Source: Chloroflexota bacterium (GTDB taxonomy: Bacteria; Chloroflexota; Limnocylindria; Limnocylindrales; CSP1-4). From it: 37,135 bases of DNA. Position 1 is the first letter of the stretch. Each line of letters starts with the position of its first letter. This document shows, piece by piece, positions 11,213 to 35,276 of this stretch. The DNA lies in contig VEOW01000138.1 of assembly GCA_012026785.1 (NCBI GenBank), forward strand, positions 1 to 37,135, in the 5' to 3' direction. The notes beneath the pieces were generated by a model. It worked only from the letters and a program-made list of their open reading frames with translations, ran no database searches and was not told the origin of the DNA. Made by a program: the position numbers and the translations under genes.

Positions 11213-11257
11213 AAGCGCTCCTCCACGCCCGACCGAGCCCCCGAGGCGGCGCGGTGT

Positions 11258-11442
11258 CACGTACGCGGCCTTGCGTCGTATCGGGCCGAGGACCGAGTGC
11301 CCGTGTCGCCTACGCAAGGCCTGCGTGCAATCCAGCGATTCGGTGCCTTGTACGCGGTGAGCGAGTAGGTGCGAAATCGCCGAGCGTGGCCGCCAGGAGC
11401 GGCGGTGACAATCGCTTGATACGACGCAGCCAGTGCGTCAGT
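11258..11442. repeat. Hairpin-repeat element, copy 1
   Basis: The 332 nt between the convergent genes ending at 11212 and 11545 hold no gene. Forward units have a CAC-TACGC arm, a 6-7 nt loop and GCGT(CGTATC). Their ACGC cores are at 11263, 11312 and, degenerate, 11352. An inverted unit at 11417-11442 reads GATACGACGC-N7-GCGTCAGTG and closes the element. The same layout recurs at 34248-34445. It looks like a REP- or MITE-like intergenic element, but no family is recognised. Confidence 0.6.
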
Positions 11443-11470
11443 GACGACCCGCGTGCGGCGACTGCCCGCC

Positions 11471-11534
11471 AGCCGCGACTGCGCACGAGCCGCGACTGCG
11501 CACGAGCCCGACCGAGCCGGGAGCCGCGACTGCC
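11471..11534. repeat. 17-bp tandem repeat
   Basis: AGCCGCGACTGCGCACG occurs twice in direct tandem (11471-11487, 11488-11504), with a third partial copy AGCCGCGACTGC at 11523-11534. It lies between the hairpin element and the stop of the GNAT gene at 11545. No role is evident. Confidence 0.7.
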
Positions 11535-30258: not shown

Positions 30259-30284
30259 TATACTCGTGCGCATGAACGTGCGCA
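30259..30284 (+). promoter_or_regulatory. vapBC promoter, possibly leaderless, with TGCGCA repeats
   Basis: A -10 box TATACT (30259-30264) lies 7 nt before ATG 30272, so transcription may start at or next to the initiation codon. No ribosome-binding site is seen. TGCGCA occurs at 30267-30272 and 30279-30284 around the start codon and could be the VapBC autoregulatory site. A clear -35 box is absent. Confidence 0.45.
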
Positions 30285-30532
30285 CAAATCTCCTGCTGCC
30301 GAAGGATCTCGTCGAGGAGGTGGACCGGTTCGCGGGGCCGCGCGGCCGGAGCCGGTATGTCGCCGAGGCGCTCGAGGCGCGACTGGAGCGCGATCGCCGA
30401 TGGGAGGCGTTCCACGAGGCGGCCGGTGCCTGGAAGGATCACCCGCTCTTCCCGACGTCGGAGGCCGTGCAGGAATGGGTCAGGGCCGGACGGGCAGAGC
30501 GCACCTCGTTCGAGCGGGACGACCAGTCCTGA
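30272..30532 (+). CDS. vapB: VapB-type antitoxin (ribbon-helix-helix)
   Basis: An 86-aa antitoxin. The N-terminus NVRTNLLLPKDLVEEVDRFAG followed by RGRSRYVAEALEARLERDRR is a ribbon-helix-helix DNA-binding domain (about residues 1-45). The C-terminal half (WEAFHEAAGAWKDHPLFP, EAVQEWVRAGR) is the likely toxin-binding arm. ATG 30272 gives this domain at the very N-terminus; the longer upstream frame has no RHH features. The toxin gene starts 6 nt after its stop, so the two are co-translated. It is expected to neutralise the toxin and repress its own promoter. Confidence 0.87.
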   Translation: MNVRTNLLLPKDLVEEVDRFAGPRGRSRYVAEALEARLERDRRWEAFHEAAGAWKDHPLFPTSEAVQEWVRAGRAERTSFERDDQS

Positions 30533-30538
30533 CACGCG

Positions 30539-30916
30539 ATGCGGTACCTGCTCGACGCCACGTTCGCGATCGACTTCCTGCGCGGGCTCCCGGAAGCACA
30601 GGCCCGCCTCGAAGACATGCTGGAAGCAGGCGATGTCCCATGCATCAACGAGGTCGTCGCCTGCGAGGTGGCGACCGGGGTACCTGAGACCGATCGAGGC
30701 TTCATCGCCTTCCTGCGTCTCGTCGAGTTCGTCCAGCCGGGCCCGAATGCTGCGGTCACGGCAGGCCGGTGGCGGGGCGAGCTCCGCCGTCGAGGCATCA
30801 CCCTCAGCGTTCCGGATGCCCTGATCGCGGCCGCCGCGGACACGCTCGAGGCCCCACTCCTGACCCGCAACGTCAAGGACTTCGACCAACTCCCGATCAA
30901 GGTCGAGACGTATTGA
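30539..30916 (+). CDS. vapC: VapC-type toxin (PIN domain ribonuclease)
   Basis: A 125-aa PIN-domain protein. Expected metal-binding acidic residues are present: Asp6 in YLLDATFAIDFLRG, the Glu in INEVVACEVATG and the Asp in VPDALIAAAA; LLTRNVKDFDQLP is the usual C-terminal motif with the last acidic position. VapC toxins are Mg-dependent RNases cleaving tRNA or rRNA. ATG 30539 is 6 nt after the vapB stop. No frameshift or missing catalytic residue is seen, so the pair looks functional. A palindrome GGCCTCG-T-CGAGGCC lies at 30991-31005 downstream. Confidence 0.9.
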   Translation: MRYLLDATFAIDFLRGLPEAQARLEDMLEAGDVPCINEVVACEVATGVPETDRGFIAFLRLVEFVQPGPNAAVTAGRWRGELRRRGITLSVPDALIAAAADTLEAPLLTRNVKDFDQLPIKVETY

Positions 30917-32370: not shown

Positions 32371-32976
32371 ATGGGACTCAATGCCTCCACGCGCATGGAC
32401 CCGACCCGGGAGCAGGCCCTCGTGGCTCGCGCCCGGGTCGATCCTGCCGCCTTCGGCGAGCTGTACGACTTCTACCTGCCACGCATCTACAGCTACGTGG
32501 CGCGGCGTGTCGAGGACCGAGCCGTGGCCGAAGACCTGACGTCGACGACGTTCGAACGGGCCCTCGCGGCGGTTCGCCGCGAGGACTTCCGGAATGCCTC
32601 GTTCGGCGGCTTCCTGTACCGGGTGGCCTCGAACGCGGTGATCGACCACGCGCGGCGGGCACGGCGCGACGTGCCGCTCTGGGCCCGGGCGTCCGACGGG
32701 GACGATGAGGAGGGCTCGCTCGCGGCGACGCTCGGCGACGAGACCGCGGCCGCGGCGTTCACCGCCGCTCTGGATCGCGACGTCCTGCGGCGGGCCCTCG
32801 AGCGGCTGCCCGAGAGCCACCGCCGCGTGATCCTCCTTCGGTATTTCGACGGGCTTGCACCCGACGAGCTTGGCGCCGCCCTGGGCTGCTCGCGGGCGAC
32901 CGTCGCCGTCAAGGTCCACCGGGCCCTTCGAAGCCTTCGAGGGGCGCTCGAAGGGGAGGCCATCGATGCGGCCTGA
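32371..32976 (+). CDS. ECF RNA polymerase sigma factor
   Basis: A 201-aa extracytoplasmic-function sigma factor. Region 2 is at about residues 26-98 (FGELYDFYLPRIYSYVARRV, EDLTSTTFERAL and FLYRVASNAVIDHARR). Region 4 is at about 140-190 (LERLPESHRRVILLRYFDGL and GCSRATVAVKVHRALRSLR). ATG 32371 is used; ATG 32395 (MDPTREQ) is equally possible, and the open frame back to 32290 is Gly/Pro-rich and unlikely. Its stop lies inside the start of the next gene (11-nt overlap), the usual sigma/anti-sigma arrangement. The promoter it recognises is unknown. Confidence 0.92.
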   Translation: MGLNASTRMDPTREQALVARARVDPAAFGELYDFYLPRIYSYVARRVEDRAVAEDLTSTTFERALAAVRREDFRNASFGGFLYRVASNAVIDHARRARRDVPLWARASDGDDEEGSLAATLGDETAAAAFTAALDRDVLRRALERLPESHRRVILLRYFDGLAPDELGAALGCSRATVAVKVHRALRSLRGALEGEAIDAA

Positions 32977-34198
32977 CGATCGCTTCGAGCTCGAAGGTGG
33001 GGCGTTCGATGCCCTCGACGCCGACCTGATGGACCTCGACGCCGCCCTGTCGGACGCGGGTCGAACCGCCCGCCGGCGGACCTCGGCGCAGGTTCGGCCT
33101 GATCCGCAGTTCGCTGCGGGCCTTCGGTCGCGGTTGATGGCGGCTGCCGCCGCACCGGCCGTGCCGGTCGCGATGGGACCCTGGGACCGCGAACCGGGTC
33201 GCGAGTGGGCGCCGGAGCGCGTCACGCCACGGGTCGCCCCGCGCGTCCCGGCCGCGGCCACTCGACCCCGTTGGGCATTCCTCGCCGCGGCTGCCGCGCT
33301 CGTCACCGTCGTGGCCGGCGGGGCGACGAGCGTCCGCTTCGACTGGCTCCTGCCGCCACCGTCGTCCGCCGAGCCGAGCCTGAGCGTGCTCGCCTCGCCG
33401 TCGCCGTCGACGCCAGCGGTGACCGAGGAGCCCGCCGCCACGCTGGCGCCGCCGATCGCGACGATCGCACCCCTGGTGCCGACGGCTGAGCCCGCGCCTG
33501 TGCCGACGCCCACGCCCACGCCGAAACCGACGCCGAAGCCGACGCCGAAACCCACGCCGAAGCCAACGCCCAAGCCAACCGCGAAGCCCACGCCCGAGCC
33601 GACCGTCGGGGCACTCTCGCTCTCGGTCAAGGGCTGCCCTGGCGCAAACCTCCTGATCTGGTCGAGCGCCGCGGACGCCTACAAGTACCGGGTCTATCGC
33701 AGCACCTCGGGCGAGGTCGGGGCCCTCTACCCGCCGGAGGGCGCGACGCTGGTCGCCAAGATCCCGGGCATCGACGGGTTCGACATCGTCGGTGGTGGTT
33801 CGACCGCCTGGTACCGCGTCTTCGCCGTCGACGCCGAGAACAACCTCTTGGCGGTCAGCCCCTCGAAGTCGATGACCGGGGTGGGCGCGATCTCGCTCGG
33901 CGGCTTCGATGCCTGGCCCAGCGGCCCGGGTTCCATCGACTCCTCGTGGACGCCCGCCTCGGTGCCGTCCGCCTGCTTTAGCTACGGAAAGTTCGTCGCG
34001 TCCGAGACGGACCCCGACCCGAGCTACGTGAAGGGCAACCGGTACCTCGCCGTCCTGGAGAGCCCCGAGATCGCCAGCGTGCAGATCACCGGCCTGGACC
34101 CGGCCACCCTGTGGGTCCGCTACGAGTACATCCGCTCCACGAGCATGGGCAGCTTCGTCGTCGCCCGAACGAGCGTGACCCAGGTCACCGTGGAGTAG
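32966..34198 (+). CDS. Anti-sigma-like membrane protein with Pro/Thr/Lys linker
   Basis: A 410-aa protein. Residues 1-100 are cytoplasmic (acidic N-terminus, then VRPDPQFAAGLRSRLMAA), where an anti-sigma helix bundle would sit. A membrane helix is near 103-123 (RWAFLAAAAALVTVVAGGA). A linker with repeated Thr-Pro-Lys-Pro spans about 180-212. The C-terminal 195 residues hold a beta domain (YKYRVYRSTSGEVG, WYRVFAVDAENNLLAV) like those of the 31057-32265 protein, then a second, less similar one. AAGGGGAGG at 32951-32959 precedes ATG 32966. The anti-sigma role is inferred from coupling and topology; no zinc HxxxCxxC motif is present. Confidence 0.75.
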   Translation: MRPDDRFELEGGAFDALDADLMDLDAALSDAGRTARRRTSAQVRPDPQFAAGLRSRLMAAAAAPAVPVAMGPWDREPGREWAPERVTPRVAPRVPAAATRPRWAFLAAAAALVTVVAGGATSVRFDWLLPPPSSAEPSLSVLASPSPSTPAVTEEPAATLAPPIATIAPLVPTAEPAPVPTPTPTPKPTPKPTPKPTPKPTPKPTAKPTPEPTVGALSLSVKGCPGANLLIWSSAADAYKYRVYRSTSGEVGALYPPEGATLVAKIPGIDGFDIVGGGSTAWYRVFAVDAENNLLAVSPSKSMTGVGAISLGGFDAWPSGPGSIDSSWTPASVPSACFSYGKFVASETDPDPSYVKGNRYLAVLESPEIASVQITGLDPATLWVRYEYIRSTSMGSFVVARTSVTQVTVE

Positions 34199-34247
34199 GC
34201 TCCACCCGCCGGCCCAGCCGAGCCGCCCCGCCCAACCGAGCCGCGGC

Positions 34248-34445
34248 CACCTACGCGTCAGCTGCGTCGTATCGGCTGGTTTGCCCCGATCCGCGATCAC
34301 CCACGCGATGGGTGCGTCGTATCCACTGCCCGGCCGCGATCCGCGCCCACCTACGCGCCAGACGGGGAATCCGACACCGCCCCGAGCGTGGCCTCCCACC
34401 CGCGCCTTGACAATCGGTGGATATGACGCGGCTCTTGCGCAGGTG
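34248..34445. repeat. Hairpin-repeat element, copy 2, with 50-bp period
   Basis: Units of the form CACCTACGC-N7-GCGTCGTATC start at 34248, 34298 and 34348, exactly 50 bp apart; the third is degenerate on its 3' arm. An inverted unit at 34420-34445 (GATATGACGC-N7-GCGCAGGTG) closes the element, giving imperfect 26-bp terminal inverted repeats. Each unit can form an ACGC/GCGT hairpin. TGACAATCG precedes the inverted unit here and at copy 1. The whole gap 34199-34475 between convergent genes has no coding sequence. Confidence 0.65.
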
Positions 34446-34475
34446 ACAACGGCGCCGAGCTCACTCGCGGTGATC

Positions 34476-35276
34476 TCACTCGCCGGTGAAGCGGGGCGGG
34501 CGCTTCTCGAGGAAGGCGGCCATGCCCTCGGCGTGGTCGGCAGTTCGGCCGGCCAGGTCCTGGAGCTGCGCCTCGTAGTCGAGCGCCTCGTCGAGGGTTC
34601 GATCCCAGGTCGTGTCGAGGGCTCGCTTCGTGAGCGCCACGGCGCGCGGAGCCGAGGCGGCGAGCCGGGCCGCGATGTCGCGAGCAGCGCCCAAGAGCTC
34701 GTCGGCCGCAACGACCCGCGACACGAGGCCGATCCGTAGCGCCTCGTCGGTCGCCACGGGATCGCCGATCAGCGCCATCTCCGCCGCCCGCGCCGCGCCG
34801 ACGAGTCGCGGCAGGAACCACGTCGCGCCGCTGTCCGGCACCAGCCCGACGCGCCCGAAGCCCAGCACGAACGTCGCTCCCTCAGAAGCGATGCGGAGAT
34901 CGCAGGCGAAGGCGAGCGAGGCCCCGGCGCCAGCGGCCACGCCGTTGATCGCGCCGACGCTCGGCTTCGGCAGCGAGCGCATGGCGCGAATGATCGGGTT
35001 GTAGCGCTCGCGAACCTCTTCGCCGAGCGGTGCGGCATCGGGCTCCTGGCGCTCCCGCAGGTCTTGCCCGGCGCAGAATGCGCGCCCCGCACCGGTCAGG
35101 ATCACGGCACGGACGGAGGCATCGCGCTCCAGGCGCCGGAACACACCCAACAGCTCCTGCTTCATCGGCACGGTCAGCGAGTTCAGCGCATCCGGCCGGT
35201 TGAGCGTGACGGTCGCGACCCCGTCCTCCGCCGCGACGAGGACCGTCGCCCCCGCGGACCCCTCGCCCGACGTCAT
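34476..35276 (-). CDS. paaG: Enoyl-CoA hydratase/isomerase, PaaG-like
   Basis: A 266-aa crotonase-fold enzyme. GAGRAFCAGQDLRE (about 63-75) and INGVAAGAGASLAFACDLRIA (110-130) form the oxyanion hole. GLVPDSGATWFLPRLVG contains Asp148, the catalytic acid typical of PaaG isomerases. The Glu found in hydratases at GGGCE is absent here (GAGAS). PaaG turns the ring epoxide into the oxepin-CoA and later shifts double bonds. Its ATG overlaps the stop of the upstream DUF1444-like gene by 4 nt. The cluster 34476-36788 thus complements the epoxidase operon 5 kb away. Confidence 0.9.
   Translation of the reverse strand: MTSGEGSAGATVLVAAEDGVATVTLNRPDALNSLTVPMKQELLGVFRRLERDASVRAVILTGAGRAFCAGQDLRERQEPDAAPLGEEVRERYNPIIRAMRSLPKPSVGAINGVAAGAGASLAFACDLRIASEGATFVLGFGRVGLVPDSGATWFLPRLVGAARAAEMALIGDPVATDEALRIGLVSRVVAADELLGAARDIAARLAASAPRAVALTKRALDTTWDRTLDEALDYEAQLQDLAGRTADHAEGMAAFLEKRPPRFTGE

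Follow-up and report, generated by a model that had tools for sequence, protein, structure and literature searches.

Integron attC sites and Xer dif sites are organized as dyad arms around a short centre that is fixed in length and variable in sequence. REPINs are short intergenic palindromes that occur in inverted pairs, tandem arrays and genome-specific families (PMC3116915), and GTAG/CGTC REPs have been described with like features (PMC3733652). BOX elements of Streptococcus pneumoniae are modular and intergenic, combining end modules with variable tandem inner modules, and mobility has been inferred for them (PMC3049150). The BrickBuilt MITE of Porphyromonas gingivalis, present in 19 copies that are always intergenic and species-limited, consists of tandem modules between a leader and a tail carrying inverted repeats (PMC4596501). 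Small interspersed repeats are poorly known beyond a few well-studied phyla, and open-access papers yielded no description of elements such as those reported here in this lineage.

The present elements belong to a family first noticed as an array in the window, meaning the whole 37,135-nucleotide stretch of DNA analysed. In their modular, intergenic build they recall BOX and BrickBuilt, and in their short palindromic units, inverted pairs, tandem arrays, extragenic position and genome specificity they recall REPIN/REP (PMC3116915, PMC3733652). Unlike those of BOX, the modules here are dyads that keep a constant 7-bp spacer and follow one another at a 50-bp pitch; the copies number about 20, with no known IS carrying related ends. 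BrickBuilt repeats measure 23 bp and have no spacers, whereas here a 50-bp pitch includes variable gaps of about 20 bp and the terminal units are inverted. BOX and BrickBuilt are analogous in build but differ in module size, and we claim no membership in either by sequence.

The array at 34247-34446 comprises two forward units, the second starting exactly 50 bp after the first, and closes with an inverted unit; all three are of the CACCTACGC-N7-GCGT type, with TCACCTACGC-N7-GCGTCGTATCCAC as the consensus in the window (Table 1). When up to 3 mismatches were allowed, a 27-base pattern matched four times in the window and not once in 100 dinucleotide shuffles, so shuffled DNA yields no units of this kind. 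That description had counted three forward units at 50-bp steps. The first two stand; the third, at 34348, falls below threshold and has sister counterparts that are inverted. In an 11-copy alignment, this degenerate unit (u3) lines up with TCAGATAACG-N7-GCGTGGTAGG, which is the inverted inner unit in the 109-bp class, so the layout is one of two forward and two inverted units, one of which is degenerate here. The closing reverse unit was recovered as described, as was the position between convergent genes, namely 32966-34198 (+) and an enoyl-CoA hydratase gene at 34476-35276 (-). Short GC-rich repeats of the CCGGCCCAGCCGAGCCGC type flank the array at 34209-34244. The same layout recurs at 11257-11444, and GCCCGACCGAGCC is present on either side of this second element (11227-11239 and 11505-11517).

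Table 1. Units and central heptamers of the two elements in the window.
Feature	Position	Strand	Remarks
Array, unit u1, left terminal, CCACCTACGC-GTCAGCT-GCGTCGTATCGGC	34247..34276	+	model R1 E=2.9e-6
Array, unit u2, TCACCCACGC-GATGGGT-GCGTCGTATCCAC	34297..34326	+	50 bp past u1; R1 E=4.5e-6
Array, degenerate internal unit u3	34347..34374	-	below weight-matrix threshold; placed by 11-copy alignment
Array, central heptamer GAGCGTG	34384..34390	+	33 bp (start to start) ahead of terminal inverted unit
Array, terminal inverted unit u4, TCACCTGCGC-AAGAGCC-GCGTCATATCCAC	34417..34446	-	R1 E=2.5e-7
Second element, unit u1	11257..11285	+	spacer 6, one base short
Second element, unit u2	11306..11335	+	weight-matrix and R1 model matches
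Second element, weak internal inverted unit u3, GCACCTACTC-N7-GCGTACAAGGCAC	11343..11372	-	weight matrix, 11-copy alignment
Second element, central heptamer GAGCGTG	11382..11388	+	
Second element, terminal inverted unit u4	11415..11444	-	27-base pattern, R1 model

Searches by DNA sequence, by pattern and with a 37-position sequence model of 51 units located 20 elements on 19 contigs of the source genome, two of them in the window, with about 60 units. The genome-wide pattern search gave 19 matches, compared with none for a reversed-pattern control. A profile search of this kind had been proposed at the outset, and with 20 elements found, matches are therefore not confined to two loci. The elements are scattered singly at about one per 190 kb, mostly measure 188-252 bp and have no coding capacity. 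All 20 are intergenic, with no overlap with genes as predicted by a simple codon-usage script rather than a full annotation. Their build consists of forward TCACCTACGC-N7-GCGTCGTATCC dyads at 50-bp pitch, internal and terminal inverted dyads and, usually, a central GAGCGTG. Full-length copies have a u1-u2 pitch of 50 bp, and the same value holds in other genera; loss of a spacer base reduces it to 49 bp. From u2, the terminal inverted unit lies 109, 120, 121-122 or 144 bp away. In six genera, almost every unit has a 7-bp spacer. Counting both orientations, GAGCGTG occurs within 27 of 41 elements versus 9 of 77 flank segments, and AGCGTG is invariant in the 11-copy alignment.

Both neighbouring genes could be called for about 31 copies in the source and sister genomes, and these divide into roughly 12 convergent, 15 co-directional and 4 divergent settings. 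Where flanking genes match Pfam, they have ordinary roles in metabolism, regulation or housekeeping and are unrelated among copies. The Pfam-scanned proteins flanking the copies examined include no transposase or recombinase. Strong model matches all fall in short elements, with no autonomous copy among them, a result that is not final as the assembly is 89% complete. One copy (C114) adjoins a gene (L028:716-1483) whose product matches a TetR N-terminal domain and a resolvase helix-turn-helix (HTH_7).

Each unit had initially been drawn as an ACGC/GCGT hairpin. Among 51-53 units, the arms scarcely vary and all spacers but one (6 bp) measure 7 bp; the first (R) and last (Y) spacer bases combine at random (G..T 13, A..T 13, G..C 12, A..C 10). 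A five-pair ACGCR/YGCGT stem has 91.0% paired cells versus 90.9% after shuffling, which leaves the hairpin unsupported. Spacers are no more palindromic than expected in the source genome or in other genomes. Arm pairing between u2 and u4 amounts to 0.801 within an element versus 0.803 between elements, and compensatory base changes are absent both inside units and between u2 and u4. This lack of compensatory pairing therefore disfavours two functions suggested in the preliminary description, a transcribed structured RNA and a bidirectional terminator. Such a role is very improbable, even though folding of the long inverted repeats is somewhat more stable than that of shuffled sequence (z -2.2 and -1.6) and a good third of the copies, the roughly 12 of 31 noted above, lie between convergent genes. 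Many copies lie elsewhere, no T-run or terminator-like site was found at the elements, and Rfam returned no match for them. On sequence grounds, we favour the view of the units as putative protein-recognised DNA dyads rather than RNA or single-strand hairpins.

The unsupported stem also bears on the REP/REPIN comparison, in which a RAYT (Y1) transposase would mobilise the elements through single-stranded hairpins. Short intergenic palindromes, inverted pairs, tandem arrays and genome-specific families agree with that account (PMC3116915, PMC3733652), yet the stem measures 4-5 bp and does not covary, two dyads stand on each side, and 20 copies (about 60 units) contrast with the usual >100 per genome. 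Moreover, none of 17 genomes of the family, six unit carriers included, has a Y1_Tnp match in the assemblies as they stand, whereas control genomes matched. Mobilisation by RAYT thus appears highly implausible, and strict REP membership, judged by RAYT transposase and stem-loop, was set aside. The best-understood bacterial counterpart is defined by its transposase; as the present elements lack it, the evidence points to a different mover.

Comparison between copies gave identities of 78-94% for unit arms, 31-67% for N7 spacers, 41-74% for inter-unit DNA and 32-38% outside, which indicates that conservation ends at the outer units and that the units are constrained. Terminal inverted repeats are formed by the first and last units, u1 and u4, which are copies of each other in opposite orientation at the element ends. 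Since u2 is closer to its counterparts in other elements (0.83) than to the units beside it in the same element (0.74), whole elements have been copied. The outer 30-40 bp are not conserved, though partly gained along with the element, and the exact insertion boundary is therefore uncertain. The units may be in use where they stand, or spread may have been restricted to copies that kept their units intact; the data fit both alike. Conserved arms amid drifting interleaved DNA would suit a host function as well, with the dyads acting as chromosomal sites for a nucleoid-associated, regulatory or segregation protein and selected at chosen intergenic places. The strict 7-bp spacer and 50-bp pitch are consistent with such a role, as are the few copies between divergent genes and the heptamer-to-terminal-unit distances in classes about one helical turn apart. 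Flanking genes that are unrelated among copies speak against it, as do the history and distribution of the elements, and we regard it as fairly unlikely and clearly less probable than mobility.

At the locus C148, the flanking genes abut or nearly do so in nine congeners, and a 314-bp gap holds the element in the source genome; the DNA holding the element was therefore gained there. An empty site has thus clearly been filled at least once, a pattern that fits poorly with selected host sites. At another locus (C258), three congeners have a shorter gap, and that of a fourth, G013, is longer and unrelated. On both sides of the C258 copy lies a 34-bp stretch from the end of a neighbouring gene, directly repeated there but single in relatives. 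It is the one copy of 37 tested with a clear flanking duplication, the other 36 having none, and a target-site duplication is therefore not established; flanking duplication was discarded as a general target-site signal. For the window's own two sites, synteny with the nearest congener, G013, is lost on one side, so that neither offers a clean empty site.

Two further congeners, G004 and G012, carry a different insert in the C148 gap. At its ends, the G004 insert (G004:C117, L161:451-620) has GATACCAA-N5-TTGGTAT dyads in mutually inverted orientation, and GAGCGTG lies between them. This dyad occurs at several G004 loci (also L171, L174 and L176) and has no exact match in the 14 other genus members searched, source genome included. 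The G012 insert (G012:C242, L162:480-720) has an ATACCA..TGGTAT-like dyad at one end. Orthology between the source genome's C148 insert and these two was considered and rejected for lack of a convincing alignment.

The unit model identified multi-copy carriers in five other genera of the family (G043, G054, G094, G023 and G062), each with its own unit consensus. The spread is patchy and involves single species of these genera. Among 177 genomes of the class, the unit model at E 0.003 matched none that lies outside the family. The 14 congeneric genomes contain only two single units at chance level, as weak matches in G007 and G010, a near-absence that weighs against sites maintained for a host protein. 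A search of a genome collection returned one exact pattern match, a lone unit judged to be chance. A viral origin was also considered and dropped, as no viral contig contained the exact pattern. In G023, 2.9 identical tandem copies of the 50-bp module stand at a contig start (G023:C8, L138:1-144), and duplicated modules are also found in G043 and G054. Variable copy number and tandem amplification likewise count against host-protein arrays. The G023 contig begins inside this perfect tandem array, and such arrays may exceed the assembly and break contigs.

The family probably consists of non-autonomous miniature mobile elements, MITE-like in a broad sense and roughly 190-250 bp long, whose dyads would be bound in trans by a putative recombinase or transposase. 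As read from sequence comparison, mobility is supported by the dispersed copies, the copying of whole elements, the gain at C148, the patchy spread and the tandem duplication of 50-bp modules. The "MITE/REP-like mobile element" of the preliminary description was thus borne out in kind: the elements are dispersed, copied whole, gained at an abutting gene pair and patchy. In the proposed mechanism, a recombinase or transposase, as a dimer or pair, would bind each dyad in trans, and neighbouring dyad-bound complexes would interact at the 50-bp pitch. The inverted element ends would then meet in a synaptic complex and the element would be inserted, with inserted copies retained in intergenic DNA. 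Three main length classes, in which the heptamer-to-terminal-unit distance steps by about one helical turn in a small sample, are as expected if bound complexes touch.

A rival reading would make each unit a dif/attC-like core site of a tyrosine recombinase of the Xer or integron type, with two arms around a 7-bp overlap. The two inverted inner arms, the asymmetric outer arms and a centre that is variable in sequence and fixed in length resemble such sites, and three terminal units carry CCTAAC/GTTAGG or similar, comparable to the attC R box. However, that box fits few copies only, the copies are scattered singly at about one per 190 kb rather than arranged as cassette arrays, and no recombinase gene lies beside the copies examined. 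We consider this identification distinctly unlikely. Somewhat more credible, if still tentative, is an undescribed enzyme system that would read several dyads per end at 50-bp pitch, with the dyad cores of a genome switching together between species (ACGC-N7-GCGT here, CCAA-N5-TTGG in the congener) and the inverted layout and GAGCGTG kept constant.

As probable miniature mobile elements of simple and strict geometry, these copies span several genera of a family known here from fragmentary genomes only. Their genome-specific dyad core offers a comparative route to the mover, as a factor whose binding residues change with the site. Elsewhere in the window, at 30272-30916, a PIN-domain protein (30539-30916) is preceded by a small predicted ORF (30272-30532), and the two may form a VapBC-type toxin-antitoxin pair.
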